From NCBI RefSeq assembly GCF_900167905.1, contig NZ_FUYZ01000003.1:248001-312000 (forward strand): 64,000 nt of DNA, in the 5' to 3' direction. The notes beneath the pieces are model-generated. The model was not told where the DNA came from. It saw only the letters and a list, made by a program, of their open reading frames with translations, and did not search any database. Origin of the DNA: Soonwooa buanensis (GTDB lineage Bacteria; Bacteroidota; Bacteroidia; Flavobacteriales; Weeksellaceae). A program made the position numbers and the translations under genes. Positions 18,834 to 26,977 of this stretch are shown in pieces (position 1 is the stretch's first letter; every line of letters starts with the position of its first letter).

Positions 18834-20738
18834 TTAGTTTTCAAAATATTTTTGATACCATAATTCGAAAGTGACAAGTTGCCAAAGTCTTACATAATCC
18901 ATTGGTTCTTGCGCTTCTTGTTGCCATTTATCAATAATTTCAGATTTAAAGAAACCACGTTTTTTTAGGTTTTTTAAATTGTCCGAAACAAAATTTTTAG
19001 CTTTATCATTGGATTGAATAAAATAGGCAAGTGGAAAACTAAAACCTTTTTTTGGCATTTCTAAAACTTCTTTTGGAAGAAAATTTTGTGCTACTTTTCT
19101 TAATAAAGGTTTATTGATAATGCCGTTATAACGAATATTGGTAGGCAATTGCGAAACATAATCTATCAGTTTGTTACTTAGATATGGATAGCGAAATTCG
19201 ATGCCGTATTTCATGGCGCTAAGATCGTCTCTAAAAACGTGATGTGACGATAAAGAATAGGCGATATCGTATTCGAATAGACCTTCGTAATTTTCTTTAT
19301 CGGTTAAATGAAATTCGTTTAAATTAAAATTATTTTTGGATTTAATCTCGTTTGAAAATAGAGACATCGCTTCAGCTGGACGCATTCCGGATTGACTTTG
19401 ACGGAAGAAATCAAACATTGAATCTTGAGAAAAATAGTTTTTTACTTTTCGCGAAAATTTATCATTTGTAAAAATAAAATTCTTAACAAAGTTGAATTTT
19501 TTAAGCTTTTGCCATTTTCCTAGTTTTAAAGAATGCTCGTAACCGCCAAAAAGTTCGTCCGCGCCATTGCCACTTAATACCACTTTGTAGCCTTTTTTAT
19601 TTGCAAATTGAGTAGCATTTATTAATACTTCGAGGCTGCAATAAGGCTCTTCAAAATGTTGAATATTTTCTTTCAAATTGTTGAGAACTTCCTCGTCATC
19701 AACTTTTTTTATAAGATGAGGTATGTCTAAAGTTTTTGCAACCAAACTTGCATTTTCAACTTCTTGATCGGAGAATTTATACGAAATAGTGAACGCCGTA
19801 ATATCATTGTGAAATGCTTTCGACTTCGCAGTTATTAAAGTAGAATCGATGCCACCGCTCATCATACTTGCTACAGGAACATCTGCAAAAAGCTGTTCGT
19901 CAACGCTTTCTGCTAATAATTGGTCAACTTGTTTTTGCGCTTCTTCTAAGCTAATATTTGTGCTTTTTATATTTGGAAGTTTCCAAAAAGATTGGATTTT
20001 TGTTTCAAAATTCTCTAAGTTTATCGATAGCCAATGCGCTGGTTTTAAAGAATAAATTCCTTCAAAACAAGTGTCCGGCGCCAAGGTTGTTTGGAAAAGA
20101 AAATTAGTATAAATCCCACGCCAGTTGATTTCTGGTTTTATCCAATCAGCTTTTAATATTGCTTTTATCTCGGAAGCCCAAATAATATTTTCATCTTTTT
20201 TTAGTGAATAGAAAAGTGGTTTTAATCCCATTCTATCCCTTGCAAGTAATAATTTTTTACTTTCTAAATCAATGATGCTGATGGCGAACATACCATCTAA
20301 TTTTTCAAAAATAGCTTCTTTCCAATGTAGATAGCCGTTGAGGATAACTTCGGTGTCGGTTTGACTTAAAAATTGATAACCTAAATTTTCTAGTTCGACA
20401 CGGATTTTTTTAAAATTATAAATCTCGCCATTAAAGTTAATAATACATTTACCATCCGATGTTGACATTGGTTGATGTCCTTTTTCGGATAAATCCAAAA
20501 TTGAAAGTCTTCGGAATCCAACCGCGATATTGGAGTTTTCGACTGCAGTAAGAAGAGGTTGTTTTGATTTAATTTCTGAAATGCTATCAGTTCCCGAAAA
20601 GAAATTTCCATTGTTGAGATCGCCAAGCCAAAAACCTTCGTCATCGGGACCACGGTGCGTAATAGCTTTATTCATTTCCAAAATATTTTTGGAAGAAAGC
20701 TTTTTGTTAATTGAAAAATAACCAGTGATACCGCACAT
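18834..20738 (-). CDS. asnB: Asparagine synthase (glutamine-hydrolysing)
   Basis: A 634-residue two-domain enzyme. The mature N-terminal Cys2 of MCGITGY is the glutaminase nucleophile, which fixes the start at 20738 although the frame stays open 57 codons further upstream. Residues 1-200 are the Ntn glutaminase (RGPDDEGFW, GFRRLSILDLSEKGHQPM, NGEIYN). The synthetase domain has the ATP-pyrophosphatase loop SGGIDS at 294-299 and SGNGADELFGGYEH further on. It transfers glutamine nitrogen to an aspartyl-AMP or a similar carboxylate. Its ATG overlaps the stop of the flippase gene (TAATG), so it is translationally coupled to a polysaccharide gene set; such AsnB homologues may amidate sugar acids rather than make free asparagine. 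Confidence 0.93.
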   Translation of the reverse strand: MCGITGYFSINKKLSSKNILEMNKAITHRGPDDEGFWLGDLNNGNFFSGTDSISEIKSKQPLLTAVENSNIAVGFRRLSILDLSEKGHQPMSTSDGKCIINFNGEIYNFKKIRVELENLGYQFLSQTDTEVILNGYLHWKEAIFEKLDGMFAISIIDLESKKLLLARDRMGLKPLFYSLKKDENIIWASEIKAILKADWIKPEINWRGIYTNFLFQTTLAPDTCFEGIYSLKPAHWLSINLENFETKIQSFWKLPNIKSTNISLEEAQKQVDQLLAESVDEQLFADVPVASMMSGGIDSTLITAKSKAFHNDITAFTISYKFSDQEVENASLVAKTLDIPHLIKKVDDEEVLNNLKENIQHFEEPYCSLEVLINATQFANKKGYKVVLSGNGADELFGGYEHSLKLGKWQKLKKFNFVKNFIFTNDKFSRKVKNYFSQDSMFDFFRQSQSGMRPAEAMSLFSNEIKSKNNFNLNEFHLTDKENYEGLFEYDIAYSLSSHHVFRDDLSAMKYGIEFRYPYLSNKLIDYVSQLPTNIRYNGIINKPLLRKVAQNFLPKEVLEMPKKGFSFPLAYFIQSNDKAKNFVSDNLKNLKKRGFFKSEIIDKWQQEAQEPMDYVRLWQLVTFELWYQKYFEN

Positions 20739-21973
20739 TAGGAAAGTTTTTTTGATTCGTAAAAATAAGCAATTGCTGGTAGAATTCCGGATAATGTAAG
20801 ACAGCCAAATGTAATATATGCGACACCAATTAACCCAAATTTTGGAATTATTAAGTATAATGAAACTGAAGTCAAAAGGAGCATTAATACGGAGATTTTT
20901 AAGTTCCACATCGATTTTCCGATAGAAGCTAGCATGTACACAAACAAAACTCGGAAAATTAAGGACATAACTGCTGCCAATAGTAAAATGTTGTAAATTG
21001 TTGTATCTGCATATTGCTTTCCGAAAATTCCTAGAACTTGTTTACTGAAAAAATAGCCGACTAAATATATAGCAACACCAACAATGGTAAATAATTTCAG
21101 GTAATTAAATACAAAGTGATATTGGTACTTTTTGTCTCTGTGATGTTGACAAAGTTTTGGATATTCAGTTTGCATAAAGATAAAACCTAAAACTAAAATA
21201 TTCATTGGGATCATCGCGCTAACTTTATAATGCGCAACATCGGCATCTGTCATCAGCCAGCCAATAAAAAAAATATCAAGGATAAAAACCAATTCGCCAA
21301 CTTGCGTTGTTAATGCCGTTGTCGACGAAAAATTCCAAAATTCTTTTTTATTAAAATTCTGTAAGTGATTGCTTTTAAAACTTAAATTAAACTTTCGATC
21401 AAACAAAAGATACGAGAAAGGTGCAATAACCAAACTAATAATAAAGCCTTCGAAATGCCAAAAATAAGTAAGCACCAAACTTAAAATCAAACTTAAAACA
21501 GAAATAAAAATATCTAGTTTAGCATAAGATTCGTTATCGAGATTGGCGCGATATTCTGCTTTTTTCTGTTCAGATAAATAGAAGCCAAGAAAGCGAATGA
21601 GAAATAAAGCAATAAGATATATTTTTGAATGTTCGTTCCAATAGAGAAATCCTGCAACGAGAAACATAATTGCGGTAAGTACGAAATTGTAAATCAACCC
21701 ATAGGAAAAAGCATAAGAAAAAAAACGCTCTTTTTCTTTTTGATCATGTATGGTTGGACCGTATTTTAAAACGCCTTGTGCTGCTCCAAATCCTGAGATT
21801 GCTAAAAATATTCCTAAAAAATTTAATGCAAAAGTGGCCATCCCAAACTCGTCCATTGTCAACATTCGCGCTCCAAAAAGACTTATAAGAAACGACGAAA
21901 TTCTTGACACAAATAAGGATGCGCCAACCCAAATTCCTTTTTTTGCGACGAAATTTTGGATGAAGCTTTTCAT
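20738..21973 (-). CDS. Oligosaccharide flippase (Wzx/MOP type)
   Basis: A 411-residue membrane protein with about 12 hydrophobic helices, matching the polysaccharide-biosynthesis/MATE-like flippase family. It opens with ASLFVSRISSFLISLFGARMLTMDEFGMATFALNFLGIF, the usual first-helix pattern. Such proteins move lipid-linked sugar units across the inner membrane. Its start overlaps the glycosyltransferase stop by four bases (ATGA) and its stop overlaps the asnB start, so all three are tightly coupled. The glycan is unknown and no polymerase (Wzy) gene is near. Confidence 0.85.
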   Translation of the reverse strand: MKSFIQNFVAKKGIWVGASLFVSRISSFLISLFGARMLTMDEFGMATFALNFLGIFLAISGFGAAQGVLKYGPTIHDQKEKERFFSYAFSYGLIYNFVLTAIMFLVAGFLYWNEHSKIYLIALFLIRFLGFYLSEQKKAEYRANLDNESYAKLDIFISVLSLILSLVLTYFWHFEGFIISLVIAPFSYLLFDRKFNLSFKSNHLQNFNKKEFWNFSSTTALTTQVGELVFILDIFFIGWLMTDADVAHYKVSAMIPMNILVLGFIFMQTEYPKLCQHHRDKKYQYHFVFNYLKLFTIVGVAIYLVGYFFSKQVLGIFGKQYADTTIYNILLLAAVMSLIFRVLFVYMLASIGKSMWNLKISVLMLLLTSVSLYLIIPKFGLIGVAYITFGCLTLSGILPAIAYFYESKKLS

Positions 21974-23097
21974 GATTTTAAAACAGATTCATAAACATTG
22001 CTGTACTGCTTAGCAATATTTTTTGGACTATATTTTTCTTCAATGCCTATATGTAAATCTTGCGGATTTGCGAAGGTTTTTTCGTGCAACAGCATCGCCT
22101 TCATGGCATCATATAATTGCTCGAGATTATCACGTTCTACCAAAATGCCAGTTTGTGGCGATACAAATTCTGGCGTACCTCCAACCGCAGAAGATATAAC
22201 TGGAATACCGCAAGCATTGGCCTCAACAATGACACAACCTTGGGTTTCGTTTTCACTAAACAAAATAAAAGCATGTGACTCTTGCATTTTTTCGGCAACT
22301 TCATCTAGCTTTAATTTTCCAAAAGTCTTGATGTAAGATTCTGCTTTTAGTTTTTTTATTAAATCTTGGATCGGTCGTAAATCTCCGTCACCTCCGATTA
22401 ATAATTGGAAATTTTGATGTTGTTGATGTAGTCGATGTGCAACCTCAATTATTTTATCTGGATTTTTTCGTTCCACCAAATTGGAAATATGAACAAAGCT
22501 GAAAACATCGTGCTTCTTTTTTTGTTCATTAATTTTAAAAATATCTGTGTTAACGACATTAGAAATCACGTGGATAGGAACTTTAATCCCTAAAACCTCA
22601 AGGCCTCTTTTTAGATTTTTACTTACTGGCATCATTGTGGAAGATTGATTTCCAATGTATTTGGCGAAAAATCTCCAAACAGAACCATGTGCATCAGAGG
22701 CATTTTCTTGATAAGCCGTCCAATGTTCTGTAATAACAAAGGGGATTTTGTGTTTTTTCTTTAGATAAACAGGGAAGAACAAATTGTTATGCAAAACATT
22801 CGCGTGGACAATGTCGGGTTTTTGCATATTTTGAAAGCCTAATTTGTAAGCTTTCATTCTTCTGCTAAAATTGATAAGCGGATTCTTCGTATTTCGATAA
22901 TAAACGATCAAAGTTTTAAGACCGTTAATTACTTTTTCGTCGAATAGAAATTTTTCCTTTTGGTTAGGATCACCAATCGCATGAAGCACTTCTACATGAT
23001 GTTGCAAAGCCACGGCTTCTGCGTGGCGTTGTACGAAATTTCCGTTGGTCGGTTCCAATTTATTAGGATACCAAGAAGAAATAAAAAGAACTTTCAA
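21970..23097 (-). CDS. Glycosyltransferase family 4
   Basis: A 375-residue GT-B fold enzyme. The opening MKVLFISSWYPNKLEPTNGNFVQRHA is that of GT4 transferases; the C-terminal half has FVHISNLVERKNPDKIIEVA, LLIGGDGDLR and the catalytic/nucleotide E-x7-E motif in ENETQGCVIVEANACGIPVISSAVGGTPE. It transfers a sugar from a nucleotide-sugar to a growing glycan at the cytoplasmic face. First of three overlapping polysaccharide genes; it starts 6 bases after the stop of the upstream 161-residue protein. Donor and acceptor are unknown. Confidence 0.9.
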   Translation of the reverse strand: MKVLFISSWYPNKLEPTNGNFVQRHAEAVALQHHVEVLHAIGDPNQKEKFLFDEKVINGLKTLIVYYRNTKNPLINFSRRMKAYKLGFQNMQKPDIVHANVLHNNLFFPVYLKKKHKIPFVITEHWTAYQENASDAHGSVWRFFAKYIGNQSSTMMPVSKNLKRGLEVLGIKVPIHVISNVVNTDIFKINEQKKKHDVFSFVHISNLVERKNPDKIIEVAHRLHQQHQNFQLLIGGDGDLRPIQDLIKKLKAESYIKTFGKLKLDEVAEKMQESHAFILFSENETQGCVIVEANACGIPVISSAVGGTPEFVSPQTGILVERDNLEQLYDAMKAMLLHEKTFANPQDLHIGIEEKYSPKNIAKQYSNVYESVLKS

Positions 23098-23103
23098 ATG
23101 CTA

Positions 23104-23589
23104 CTAAATATTATGCGCCCAACTTCTGCTAAGTGGTTGTAAAAAATGACTTAGAAAATCTAAATAGGTATTTTTAGAAAAATCAAAAACTTCGATGTCA
23201 CGAGAAAGCTCACCAGATCTTATTTTGTTTTTAAAATCAAGAAGTTTCAAAGTTTTTACTTCGCCGTTTTCAACATAGCTAGCTTTCATTCTGTCGAAAA
23301 ATCCAAGCTCATATTCTTTATCAAATTCTCGCATAAGTCCTCCAAGTGCATCAATACTGCAGCCAGAAGCCATTTCTTTTTCTTCATCAACACATACAAC
23401 AATAAATTGATTTTTTTCAATCTTGAAAGACGCTTCCAGCGGTTTGCCATGCGCAGCCCAAGTTGATAAAAATTCGTACAAACGTTCTGCAATGTCTTTT
23501 GCTTCTTTTGGTGAGAAAGGACGAGATGCAGGATATATAATGACTCTGTAGTCGTTGGTTTCTACAATGCTAGATTCTTCAATTTTCAT
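23104..23589 (-). CDS. Conserved protein of unknown function (often mislabelled ABC transporter ATPase)
   Basis: A 161-residue soluble protein conserved in Bacteroidota. Relatives are commonly annotated as ABC transporter ATPase, but I see no Walker A, Walker B or signature motif, and it is far too short. Recognisable family blocks are RVIIYPASRPFS, LSTWAAHGKPLEASF and ASGCSIDALGGLMREF, the last with a conserved Cys. It is likely cytoplasmic. In other genomes, as far as I recall, it sits next to the Fe-S/MCE genes, as here (the CCG protein ends 120 bases away, after a terminator). Confidence 0.75.
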   Translation of the reverse strand: MKIEESSIVETNDYRVIIYPASRPFSPKEAKDIAERLYEFLSTWAAHGKPLEASFKIEKNQFIVVCVDEEKEMASGCSIDALGGLMREFDKEYELGFFDRMKASYVENGEVKTLKLLDFKNKIRSGELSRDIEVFDFSKNTYLDFLSHFLQPLSRSWAHNI

Positions 23590-23650
23590 ATCAGAATGGT
23601 TTTAAAATTAAAGTATAAAATTACGAATTATTATTTAGTTTTAATATTTA

Positions 23651-23682
23651 CAAAAATAAAACCCAAGCAAAGCTTGAGTTTT
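23651..23682 (-). terminator. Terminator after the CCG-domain protein gene
   Basis: On the minus strand AAAACTCAAGC-TTT-GCTTGGGTTTT (23682-23658; one G-T pair) is followed by ATTTTTG. Confidence 0.8.
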
Positions 23683-23708
23683 AATAATATTTTGAAACTT
23701 ATTAAAGT

Positions 23709-24494
23709 CTACAAATCGTCAGCTTCGGCAAGAAGTTCGACAATGTCTTTAACTTGTACTTCTTCATTTTTATTAAAATGTTTAACACCATCGGTCATCA
23801 TCGTGTTGCAGAAAGGACAACCTGTTGCAATCACTTTTGGTTCTTCTTTAAGCGCTTCTTCCGTTCTTTCGACATTGATGTCTTTATTACCTTTTTCTGG
23901 CTCTTTGAACATCTGTGCACCACCAGCACCACAACAAAGTCCGTTGGTTTTGCAACGCTTCATCTCAACCAATTCGGCATCAAGTTTTTCCAAAAGCATT
24001 CTTGGTGCTTCGTATTCATCATTTCCGCGACCTAGATAACATGGATCGTGGAAGGTAATTCTTTTCCCTTTGAATTGTCCTCCTTCAATTTTTAGACGTC
24101 CTTCTTCCATCAATTGCTTAAGGAATTGCGTATGGTGAAGCACTTCGAATTTTCCACCTAAACTTGGATATTCGTTTTTTAAAGTATTGAAACAATGCGG
24201 ACAAGCCGTCACAATTTTCTTAACATCGTAAGCGTTAAGAATTTCGATGTTGGTTAATGCCATCATTTGGAAGATAAACTCGTTACCAGCACGTTTTGCA
24301 GGATCACCAGTACAAGATTCTTCTTGGCCTAGAACAGCAAATTCTACACCTATTTTATGTAAGATTTTACAAAAAGCTTTGGTGATTTTTTTTGCACGAT
24401 CGTCAAAACTTCCTGCGCAACCAACCCAAAACAAAACTTCTGGAGATTTTCCTTCGGCAGCATATTCTGCCATTGTTTTTATAGTGAAATCCAT
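23709..24494 (-). CDS. CCG-domain Fe-S protein (HdrB/LutA-like)
   Basis: A 261-residue cysteine-rich protein with two CCG domains. The first has WVGCAGSFD, ESCTGDPAKR and TACPHCFNTL; the second has HDPCYLGRG, LCCGAGGAQMF and ATGCPFCNTM. CCG domains bind unusual [4Fe-4S] clusters and form the catalytic subunit of heterodisulfide reductase (HdrB/D) and of lactate or glycolate oxidase parts. It reads 95 bases downstream of the membrane 4Fe-4S protein, the natural electron partner. The real substrate is unknown; a membrane-bound HdrDE-like oxidoreductase is an inference from the pair. Confidence 0.85.
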   Translation of the reverse strand: MDFTIKTMAEYAAEGKSPEVLFWVGCAGSFDDRAKKITKAFCKILHKIGVEFAVLGQEESCTGDPAKRAGNEFIFQMMALTNIEILNAYDVKKIVTACPHCFNTLKNEYPSLGGKFEVLHHTQFLKQLMEEGRLKIEGGQFKGKRITFHDPCYLGRGNDEYEAPRMLLEKLDAELVEMKRCKTNGLCCGAGGAQMFKEPEKGNKDINVERTEEALKEEPKVIATGCPFCNTMMTDGVKHFNKNEEVQVKDIVELLAEADDL

Positions 24495-24589
24495 TTTTTT
24501 AATTTATCAATGTATCAGAGTAACAATTTACCAAAATCTTAAAAACCAAAATCATGATTGGTAGATCGTTAAATTATTTAATTATTACA

Positions 24590-25924
24590 TTATTCTGTTG
24601 CCCAATTCAATCTGTCGCCTTGGTTGTATTGCCATGGTGCAGCATTGTTTTCGATATTGGTCATCATTAAGTTAAGTTCTGTCGGCGCAGCAGATTGCTC
24701 CATCACCAAGAATCTTCTCATTTCAAAAATGATAGATAACGGATCGAGTAGGATAGGACATGCTTCTGTACAAGCGTTACAAGTTGTACACGCCCAAAGT
24801 TCTTCTTTAGTAATATAATCGTTTAACAACTTTTTGCCATCATCTACAAATTTGCCACCGTTTGCATCCATGTTTTTGCTCACTTCTTCTAGACGGTCAC
24901 GCGTTTTCATCATGATAAGACGTGGCGAAAGTTCTTTACCTGTAATATTTGCAGGGCAGCTCGCTGTACAACGACCACATTCGGTACACGAATAGGCATT
25001 AAGAAGCTGAACTTTATTTAAATCAAAAATATCTTCTGCACCGAATTTAGCAGGCGCTTCTTCTGCACCTTCAGCTGGCGCTGCGTAAGGATCGGCATTT
25101 GGATCCATCATCAATTTGATTTCTTTAGTTACAGATTCCAAATTATTGAATTCTCCTTTCGGGTTTAAATTAGCATACCAAGTACTTGGGAATGCTAAAA
25201 TAATATGTAAATGCTTAGAATAATAAAGATAGTTCATGAAGAATAAAATCCCCACAAAATGGAACCACCAAGCAAATTTTTCAACAAAGATTAAGAAACC
25301 GTCATCAAAACTAAACCATTCCAAAACTGGAACAATGAATGCGTTACTAATTGGGAAAGATCCCACCGTATGATAAACACCTCTAGCTTGTAGAATAGAT
25401 TCTGATGCATTCAACTTGAAGAAAGCCATCATTAGCGCAAATTCGATAATCAAAATCCAGTTAGCGTCATCTTTTGGCCAACCGAAAAGTTCTTTCATGT
25501 TAAGACGTTTAACACCGTAAAAATTTCTTCTAATAAAGAAAACAACCACGCCAATAACTACCAATAACGCCAAAACTTCTAATGTCGCCGTGAAGAAATC
25601 ATAAATCGTGTCTCCTAAAATTGAATGTAAAAAACGGTGTGTTCCGAAAATACCATCAACGATAATTTCTAAAAGTTCGATATTAATGATGACAAAACCA
25701 ACATAGACAAATAGGTGAAGAATCCCAGCAACAGGACGTTGTCCCATTTTGCTTTGTCCAAGTGCAACACGTGTCATGGTTGCCCAACGTTCGGATCTTC
25801 TGTCGGATCTGTTAATGTCTCTACCAAGGTTGATATTTCTGTAAATCTTTTGTAAGCTTTTCGCAAACATGCCAAAGCCAACGATAAGAAGAATTACAAA
25901 AATGATGTTGTCAATATACTGCAT
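24590..25924 (-). CDS. Membrane protein with two 4Fe-4S clusters (HdrE/GlpC-like)
   Basis: A 444-residue protein. The first ~270 residues hold about 5-6 transmembrane helices with His residues placed for b-type haem (GILHLFVYVGF, GTHRFLH, AWWFHFVGILFF, SKHLHIIL), as in NarI/HdrE-type cytochrome b. The C-terminal soluble part has two ferredoxin motifs, CTECGRCTASCP and CTTCNACTEACP. It should move electrons between the quinone pool and a soluble partner, most likely the CCG protein encoded next. I start at the ATG 25924 rather than a TTG three codons earlier. It follows the MCE gene by 12 bases. Confidence 0.85.
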   Translation of the reverse strand: MQYIDNIIFVILLIVGFGMFAKSLQKIYRNINLGRDINRSDRRSERWATMTRVALGQSKMGQRPVAGILHLFVYVGFVIINIELLEIIVDGIFGTHRFLHSILGDTIYDFFTATLEVLALLVVIGVVVFFIRRNFYGVKRLNMKELFGWPKDDANWILIIEFALMMAFFKLNASESILQARGVYHTVGSFPISNAFIVPVLEWFSFDDGFLIFVEKFAWWFHFVGILFFMNYLYYSKHLHIILAFPSTWYANLNPKGEFNNLESVTKEIKLMMDPNADPYAAPAEGAEEAPAKFGAEDIFDLNKVQLLNAYSCTECGRCTASCPANITGKELSPRLIMMKTRDRLEEVSKNMDANGGKFVDDGKKLLNDYITKEELWACTTCNACTEACPILLDPLSIIFEMRRFLVMEQSAAPTELNLMMTNIENNAAPWQYNQGDRLNWATE

Positions 25925-25936
25925 ATCAATCAAAAA

Positions 25937-26878
25937 TTATTTTTTACCAAATACGGAAATGTTGATATAACGCTTAGGATTTGCTTTAAGGTCTTCTATT
26001 AAAGCATTAAGGTTACTAGATGTTTTGTTGAGGTTGTTGTAAAGGTCTTCATCTTTGGTAAGTTTTCCAAGAGAACCTTCGCCATTTTGTATGCCTGCAA
26101 TAACAGAATTCAGTTTGTCAGCAGTCGTACTAAGGTTTTCGATCGCAGAGTTAAGTTTTTTAACGTCTACATTGTCTGCAACATTTCCGAATTTATCAAC
26201 TGTAGCTTTTGTTGAAACCAAAGTTTTGTTGGCATTATCAACCACAGACTTCACTCCAGCTTCGTTATTTGCTAGCATTCTATTGGTTTGGTCAGCGGTA
26301 ACTTTGAAGGCAGAAACAGTCTGGTTAAGGTTTGCTAAAAGCACTTTTATTTGTTGACGATTTTGCTCATCTACCAATTTATTAGCACTTACCATTGTCG
26401 AATCTAATTTTGACAAAACACTTGATACTTGATCTTTAACAGGACCAACTTGTGATGCCAAAGAGTTAAGCATTGACAATTGGAAGTTGCCTTTAAGCGT
26501 ATCGCCATCTTTTGCTAAAACATTTCCTTTTGCAAGATTTATTCTAAGCTCTTTTCCAGACATAAGGCCTGGTTCAAAAATTTCAACATTAGAATTTTTT
26601 GTAAATTCGAATTTGTCATCAACAGTAATCTGAACGACAAAATGTATATCGCCACTGGCGGTTGGTACTGGCTTAATCTCAGAAACTTGTCCAACACGTA
26701 AACCATTTATAGAAACTGGGTTTGACTTTGCTAATCCTTCTACATTGTCATATTTGATGTAATATTGATTGTCTGTAGAAAAGATATTTTTCCCTTTCAT
26801 GAATTGAAATAATATCGTAAAGGAAATAATTGCAAAAATTGCAATAAGACCAGCTTTTAATTCTTTACTAAACTTCAC
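25937..26878 (-). CDS. MCE/MlaD-family lipid-transport protein
   Basis: A 313-residue protein with one N-terminal membrane helix (KAGLIAIFAIISFTILFQF), an MCE domain at about 35-115 (YYIKYDNVEGLAKSNPVSINGLRVGQVSEI) and a long coiled-coil tail rich in Asn, Lys and Thr. MlaD and its relatives form hexameric rings that carry phospholipids between the inner and outer membranes. No MlaE permease or MlaF ATPase is adjacent. It is followed, in the same direction, by the two Fe-S genes, an arrangement I recall from other Bacteroidota. How lipid transport and redox chemistry are linked is not known. Confidence 0.87.
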   Translation of the reverse strand: MKFSKELKAGLIAIFAIISFTILFQFMKGKNIFSTDNQYYIKYDNVEGLAKSNPVSINGLRVGQVSEIKPVPTASGDIHFVVQITVDDKFEFTKNSNVEIFEPGLMSGKELRINLAKGNVLAKDGDTLKGNFQLSMLNSLASQVGPVKDQVSSVLSKLDSTMVSANKLVDEQNRQQIKVLLANLNQTVSAFKVTADQTNRMLANNEAGVKSVVDNANKTLVSTKATVDKFGNVADNVDVKKLNSAIENLSTTADKLNSVIAGIQNGEGSLGKLTKDEDLYNNLNKTSSNLNALIEDLKANPKRYINISVFGKK

Positions 26879-26940: not shown

Positions 26941-26977
26941 AAACAAGAAAGCGACCTGCAAATTGCAAGCCGCTTTC
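26941..26977 (-). terminator. Terminator after the PpiD-like gene
   Basis: GAAAGCG (26947-26953) pairs with CGCTTTC (26971-26977) around a smaller TGCAA stem, with a U-rich tail on the minus strand. Confidence 0.75.

Follow-up and report, generated by a model that had tools for sequence, protein, structure and literature searches.

EMO/DUF224 proteins are CCG-domain membrane proteins linked to the electron transfer flavoprotein (ETF). According to published accounts, EtfD is the mycobacterial enzyme that passes the electrons of fat burning into the respiratory chain (PMC13083937, PMC8593149), and a survey that required >30% identity and >75% coverage assigned 98% of the homologues of EtfD/EtfBA to actinobacteria (PMC8593149); given the 75% coverage cut-off, an EtfD encoded by two genes would be expected to escape such a survey. 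For the linear-cluster motif, PMC13083937 names four further phyla, with no word beginning with "bacteroid" in its main text, and Agne et al. (2021), which it cites for EtfD homologues, may already mention Bacteroidota. In the open-licence literature, we recognized no paper on a Bacteroidota EtfD or on an operon combining MCE and EtfD genes. Here, we describe such a locus in a 64,000-nucleotide stretch of the Soonwooa buanensis genome (Bacteroidota, Flavobacteriales; NZ_FUYZ01000003.1, positions 248,001 to 312,000), hereafter the window, to which all coordinates given without a locus label refer. Genes for an MlaD-type MCE protein, a cytochrome b-like protein, and a CCG-domain protein are followed there by a gene for a conserved protein of 161 amino acids. 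We conclude, with a probability of roughly 0.92, that the cytochrome and CCG proteins are a two-gene EtfD-type ETF:menaquinone oxidoreductase, a known enzyme in a new form. The computed basis for this assignment consists of homology, cofactor ligands, the fold of the membrane half, ETF operon linkage in relatives, and phyletic complementarity. The first-pass annotation had proposed an undescribed HdrDE-like system; as a redox system it is not undescribed, because the pair corresponds to EtfD divided between two genes, with ETF as the presumed donor.

The redox pair probably corresponds to EtfD

The membrane half, EtfD-N (24590-25924, minus strand; 444 amino acids from its ATG), comprises a membrane domain of the NarI-like cytochrome b type and, after it, two predicted [4Fe-4S] sites, and the other half, EtfD-C (23709-24494, minus strand; 261 amino acids), contains two CCG domains with the sites of a linear [3Fe-4S] cluster (D1) and a noncubane [4Fe-4S] cluster (D2). 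Pfam scans returned 4Fe-4S dicluster domains for EtfD-N and PF02754, in two stretches and with 113 bits, for EtfD-C. The best sequence match of both halves in PDB was the same chain, EtfD of Mycobacterium smegmatis (9ojn_A), with E values of 5.5e-75 for EtfD-C (129 of 254 aligned residues identical; runner-up 1.3e-5) and 7.7e-36 for EtfD-N (runner-up 2.8e-6). Hydropathy analysis of EtfD-N yielded six segments, two of them overlapping, that is, about five helices. When its AlphaFold model (mean pLDDT 79.8) was searched against PDB, 9ojn was matched with an E value of 1.1e-12 and a TM score of 0.75 by query length, and no other chain fell below 0.001.

For comparison at the level of ligands, 26 cofactor-site residues were taken from the EtfD paper (PMC13083937): two heme histidines, three heme arginines, two menaquinone phenylalanines, eight cubane cysteines, and 11 residues of the D1 and D2 sites (four D1 cysteines, Thr539, His583, and five D2 cysteines in EtfD numbering). 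In the alignment, 25 of the 26 are identical in the window pair. EtfD-N, numbered from the TTG at 25933 where its mechanically called open reading frame (ORF) begins, retains both heme histidines (73 and 243), 2 of the 3 heme-propionate arginines, both menaquinone phenylalanines, and all cubane cysteines (316, 319, 322, 326, 382, 385, 388, and 392). EtfD-C retains the complete D1 site (Cys 26, 61, 98, and 101, with Thr62) and the complete D2 site (His100 and Cys 152, 187, 188, 226, and 229); in the account of PMC13083937, Thr539 and His583 separate EtfD from catalytic heterodisulfide reductases. Fourteen ligand positions of EtfD-N (Arg150 excluded) are identical in all 47 split homologues scoring >300 bits, a limit that excludes one 431-residue match of 84 bits (L070). 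The match to EtfD upholds the earlier proposal of a membrane-located redox protein of quinone type with a CCG partner.

Split and fused forms across the phylum

A CCG homologue (E ≤ 1e-20) was found in 124 of 198 genomes of the phylum, a sample that includes 49 genomes of the class, the window genome among them. The CCG half is present in all 49 class genomes and in 3 genomes of family f17, and its open frame spans 256-341 residues in these 52 genomes. Most of the remaining CCG-positive genomes have a single frame of approximately 660-730 residues, and most of the 28 long-frame loci that we read contain both halves (79 loci outside the window were read: 48 from the class, 3 from f17, and 28 of other forms). 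The split form is recovered as one group, moderately supported (80/96), in a small tree. Conservation of the gene order in Bacteroidota, proposed earlier, holds for the cytochrome-CCG pair, with the cytochrome gene 5' of the CCG gene on the same strand within ~3.1 kb in 45 of the 49 class genomes, and for the gene of the 161-residue protein, which lies within ~2 kb 3' of the CCG gene in 41; the conservation is uneven, however, with the MCE gene in place in only 23. Among the best 80 of at least 589 named loci, a set therefore biased to near relatives, the closest are from Chryseobacterium (91-93% identity), followed by other Flavobacteriales, and Flavobacterium, Chryseobacterium, and Pedobacter are all represented. 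In one close relative, a 382-residue ORF without a Pfam match is located between the CCG gene and that of the 161-residue protein (L037, 7886-9034).

Linkage to ETF and complementarity of acceptors

In all 3 genomes of f17, etfB, etfA, the cytochrome gene, and the CCG gene follow one another directly, the CCG proteins of these split orthologues being 66-67% identical to that of the window, and in one of these loci (L056) an acyl-CoA dehydrogenase gene is located 5' on the same strand, with a single 158-residue ORF intervening. ETF genes were also present in the stretches of 11 of the 28 non-split loci: 6/6 of f16 and 2/2 of f14, where the fused relatives adjoin etfBA, and one each of f28 (with EtfB but no EtfA), f31, and f39. 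The window genome contains an ETF alpha match with an EtfB-like gene alongside (L096) and five acyl-CoA dehydrogenase matches, and searches of this genome for the classical ETF-QO (PF05187, Fer4_ETF_QO) and for FixC gave no match, leaving EtfD as its only ETF acceptor among the three kinds searched.

The same three acceptors were mapped across the sample. ETF alpha was detected in 195 of the 198 genomes, classical ETF-QO in 34, none of them in the class, and FixC at E values below 1e-180 in 39; four further hits of the FixC search, at 1e-31 to 1e-36, were left out of the counts and are taken as ETF-QO cross-hits because their 4 genomes are ETF-QO positive. Exactly one acceptor occurs in 191 of the 195 genomes with ETF alpha (EtfD only in 121, FixC only in 38, ETF-QO only in 32), two occur in 3 (EtfD with ETF-QO in 2, EtfD with FixC in 1), and none in 1, and the 3 genomes without ETF alpha have no acceptor of the three kinds. 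Each of the three two-acceptor genomes carries two ETF alpha matches. Among the f16 genomes, those of genus g40 carry ETF-QO in 28/29 cases and EtfD in 0/29, and those of genus g45 carry EtfD in 14/14 and ETF-QO in 0/14. Genomes with ETF that lack both EtfD and ETF-QO carry a FixC-like gene of about 441 codons, located directly after etfA in five loci scanned (L286-L290) and just after ETF alpha in the stretch from genome G030; one such gene product matched FixC in PDB (7koe) with 240.5 bits.

Loss of the linear cluster

The four D1 cysteines are kept in all of the best 80 named loci. In genus g4 of family f2, they are replaced by Ala/Ser, Ser, Asp, and Ser in 29/29 sequences (L212-L240), with the D2 ligands intact; a match was obtained in 29 of the 30 g4 genomes searched, the remaining one being 53% complete. 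A g4 genome outside that draw (G088, L083) is likewise D1-less, and a further D1-less g4 sequence was seen at L039 (6967-7746). Sequences of f14, f28, and one f31 locus make up another D1-less set, which stands apart in the tree (96/97), and D1 therefore seems, from the sequences, to have been lost at least twice. In this second set the last D2 cysteine is Glu or Asp, f28 excepted, and in every D1-less sequence compared the first cysteine of the CPHC motif is Asp. According to PMC13083937, FadF and DgcB also lack D1, and the paper suggests D2 as a possible first acceptor. The D1-less genus thus offers a natural test, between close orthologues, of the site at which ETF delivers its electrons.

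Two variants were observed alongside these losses. All six EtfD sequences of f16 (L074, L109-L113) have Cys at the position of Thr539, and D1 could therefore be an Hdr-like noncubane cluster in this family. Three loci (L075, L114, and L115) encode a second CCG protein of 405-428 amino acids near etfBA and a D1-less EtfD; that of L114 combines a 4Fe-4S dicluster domain with a CCG domain, and these proteins are possible partners of a second ETF system.

The probable operon and the MCE gene

The MCE gene (25937-26878, minus strand) starts with GTG and encodes a protein of 313 amino acids with an MlaD domain (PF02470; E 1.5e-10, 41.6 bits against a cut-off of 25.1). With the ATG start of EtfD-N, it is separated from the cytochrome gene by 12 bases and the latter from the CCG gene by 95 bases, confirming the layout of four ORFs on one strand described at the outset. 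Intrinsic-terminator-like hairpins were detected on the minus strand at 26947-26977, 5' of the operon and after a peptidylprolyl isomerase gene (14-pair stem and T run), and at 23657-23683, after the CCG gene (12-pair stem and T run), the regions folded around them having z values of -5.05 and -4.05, respectively. The scan found 5 terminator-like sites, against a mean of 2.6 in shuffles, the stems of these two being much longer than those of the other three; the repeat finder, at the settings used, reported no inverted repeats, although the hairpin scan finds both hairpins. Because the hairpins flank the MCE, cytochrome, and CCG genes, the likely transcript comprises these three, with the MCE gene probably first and the gene of the 161-residue protein probably outside.

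The MCE gene precedes the cytochrome gene in all 23 class genomes of families f1, f2, f6, and f7 and in 0/26 of the others. Over all loci with the MCE gene in this position, the median gap to the cytochrome gene is 7-8 bases; five gaps exceed 50, the largest being 618. Among the best 80 named loci, 77 have the cytochrome gene and 70 have at least 1.6 kb upstream, of which 61 contain the MCE gene; the 9 without it belong to Pedobacter, Mucilaginibacter, and other Sphingobacteriaceae or are unnamed bins. A bin labelled Chitinophaga (L205) also has the MCE gene before the cytochrome gene. In the sampled genomes, the MCE gene is thus a real operon partner of EtfD, in the order Flavobacteriales and two allied families only. 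MCE orthologues were searched for in 18 genomes, 13 of them outside f1, f2, f6, and f7; G076, with weak matches only, was excluded, leaving 12 such loci. An N-acetylmuramoyl-L-alanine amidase gene is located 5' of the MCE gene in 8 of these (f3, f4, f5, f8, f9, f10, and f17 were covered), and no cytochrome gene was present in the 1.5 kb flanks of any of the 12. The order amidase-MCE-cytochrome is found in G084, G041, and G045 (f2, f6, and f7), and the two f1 genomes, G000 (MCE-cytochrome) and G012 (likewise), have no amidase gene in the flank. LptD is encoded divergently, beside the amidase gene, in the loci scanned from f2 and f7; LptD was also observed beside the amidase and MCE genes in several families (L038, L051, L248, and L255). 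This company suggests that the MCE protein serves the envelope.

Taken together, these neighborhoods make it reasonably probable that the Flavobacteriales order is a frozen accident, in which an envelope cluster of LptD, amidase, and MCE genes joined EtfD and came to be co-transcribed with it without a shared function. The amidase-MCE pair without EtfD outside the order and its allies and the divergent LptD gene speak for this explanation, and the MCE gene seems to come from an envelope cluster of greater age, which became linked to EtfD in a single branch and has remained so. It accounts less readily for a gap of 7-8 bases maintained across many genera, or for the pairing of MCE and EtfD where the amidase gene is not beside MCE, as in G000 and G012 and in six Chryseobacterium-like loci of the named set. 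The same pairing and short spacing, with the MCE gene 5' in every genome of the four families, could instead indicate that the operon is a functional unit, in which the MCE protein brings lipids to the inner membrane and EtfD either takes up the electrons released when they are oxidized or supplies electrons to a lipid-modifying step. M. tuberculosis provides a parallel: uptake of fatty acids and cholesterol occurs through MCE1 and MCE4, and EtfD is needed for their use, according to PMC8593149 and PMC13083937. We nevertheless regard such a unit as doubtful, given that the class genomes of other families lack the arrangement, that elsewhere the MCE gene keeps company with the amidase rather than with the cytochrome gene, and that the only MlaE match in the window genome is on another contig (C17), not in the cluster of the block (MlaF was not searched for). 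In the most specific version, which is likewise tentative and on balance unlikely, MCE would feed membrane-derived lipids or fatty acids and EtfD would drain the electrons of beta-oxidation to menaquinone, both from one transcript as a parallel, in a Gram-negative phylum, to the mycobacterial MCE1/MCE4 and EtfD; since one genus dropped the linear cluster entirely, D2, not D1, would be the entry point for ETF electrons. For the coupling to lipid movement raised by the first-pass annotation, the evidence recovered consists of an operon confined to one order and two families allied to it, and its remark that no MlaE or MlaF lies nearby stood for MlaE.

Points against the EtfD assignment

Several observations weigh against reading the pair as EtfD. 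The heme-propionate Arg150 of EtfD is Leu in the window protein, and sizeable NCBIfam scores, although far short of the cut-offs, were obtained for TfrB (145.5 bits with a cut-off of 385) and LdhH (112.3 bits with a cut-off of 800). The cytochrome gene was not located near the CCG gene in 4/49 class genomes. The ETF genes of the window genome are on another contig, not adjacent to the EtfD block; only 1 of the 48 other class loci has etfBA in its stretch (L043, f4, ~6 kb downstream), and ETF genes are not near in 17 of the 28 fused-form loci read, so that the ETF linkage derives from f17, f16, f14, and single loci. One genome, G181, has ETF alpha and none of the three acceptors, and in ten genomes two ETF alpha matches go with one acceptor type, which means that the match of two ETFs with two acceptors is no strict rule. 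Finally, the genomes are related, and the 198-genome table therefore does not count independent events. The pair could alternatively be an oxidoreductase of the HdrDE, lactate, glycolate, or glycerol-3-phosphate type that acts on a small molecule of its own; the common CCG and NarI-like folds, the NCBIfam matches (GlpC and GlcF included, also below cut-off), and the lack of an adjoining ETF gene in the window block would speak for this. Such an identity is very improbable in view of Thr62, where catalytic Hdr has Cys, of His100 at the D2 position, of the failure of E. coli YkgE, GlcF, and GlpC to match EtfD-C at E ≤ 10 in phmmer with default filters (the EtfD stretch scored 258.6 bits in the same comparison), of their position outside the 22 other tree rows (on very long branches, which makes the placement unsure), and of the ETF linkage and acceptor complementarity. 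The HdrDE, lactate, and glycolate identities were rejected on these grounds, the clustering check having come out negative in agreement with the initial view that the pair is no lactate or glycolate enzyme.

The 161-residue protein and the flanking region

The ORF at 23104-23589 (minus strand) encodes the conserved 161-residue protein. Alignment of 35 sequences showed W44, H47, G76, C77, S78, and D80 to be invariant, bearing out the initial impression of an invariant Cys. The protein had no match at E ≤ 1 in Pfam, NCBIfam, or the PDB sequences, and the 35 family members gave only stray Pfam matches in 1-2 members (best E 0.003). In the structure search, its confident model (pLDDT 90.3) matched nothing in PDB at E ≤ 0.001; in VIA-align, the best Z score was 7.3 (9d85_P; rmsd 2.7, 73 aligned residues) among many similar scores, with no function indicated. 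The profile matched 68 of the 198 genomes, including all 49 of the class, FixC genomes, and the 3 without ETF alpha. The gene is thus a frequent neighbor, not an EtfD marker, and in the window probably belongs to another transcription unit in view of the hairpin at 23683-23657. The protein was rejected as a subunit of EtfD and as a factor for D1, given its presence in EtfD-less genomes and in 3/3 genomes without ETF alpha and given f17, in which EtfD has D1 while this gene is on another contig. The idea that the gene was lost in the D1-less genus g4 proved wrong, G029 and G088 having two copies elsewhere.

Beside the block, the region 18834-23097 contains GT4-type glycosyltransferase and polysaccharide flippase genes (Pfam) and, by eye, an asparagine-synthase-like ORF, and resembles a surface polysaccharide cluster.

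Proposed mechanism and significance

Acyl-CoA dehydrogenases would reduce ETF (EtfBA), and the reduced ETF would dock onto the CCG subunit, the two halves presumably assembling into one enzyme. Electrons would pass from the predicted D2 (and D1) clusters through the two cubane [4Fe-4S] clusters to heme b, and from heme b to a quinone in the inner membrane, most probably menaquinone. In Flavobacteriales, the EtfD pair would be transcribed behind the MCE gene, whose older partner would be the cell-wall amidase. Such an enzyme would explain the step from ETF to quinone in a large group of Bacteroidota without the mitochondrial-type enzyme; with the CCG half in all 49 class genomes, it is the likely link between the oxidation of acyl-CoA and branched-chain amino acids and the quinone pool in Flavobacteria and their allies. 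Division into two subunits sets the soluble half apart from the one in the membrane and should thereby help biochemistry.

Comparison with known systems

With MlaD/MCE proteins, the window MCE protein shares the MlaD domain; it has no MlaE beside it, and outside the order the usual upstream neighbor of its gene is the amidase. ETF-QO (PF05187) and FixC (7koe) presumably do the same job as the window pair, from ETF to quinone, but are unrelated flavoproteins. HdrDE and HdrBC resemble the pair in fold and cluster arrangement, and HdrDE also in its two-subunit build (PMC13083937), whereas at D1 the position held by Cys in Hdr is Thr62 in the window protein, which has His at D2. FadF and DgcB are, by the account of PMC13083937, ETF-linked CCG membrane proteins as well; the D1 cysteines missing from them are present in the window and absent in g4. 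The closest counterpart is EtfD of M. smegmatis / Rv0338c (9ojn), described in PMC13083937 and PMC8593149, with the same NarI-like cytochrome b, two [4Fe-4S] clusters, and two CCG domains, 25/26 cofactor-site residues in common, Thr at the linear cluster, His at D2, and ETF in the genome. Unlike that single chain, the window enzyme is encoded by two genes located behind an MCE gene, has Leu for Arg150, and lacks the space for the long disordered region at the C terminus. The novelty of the locus is thus the split form of a known enzyme, not a new kind of enzyme.

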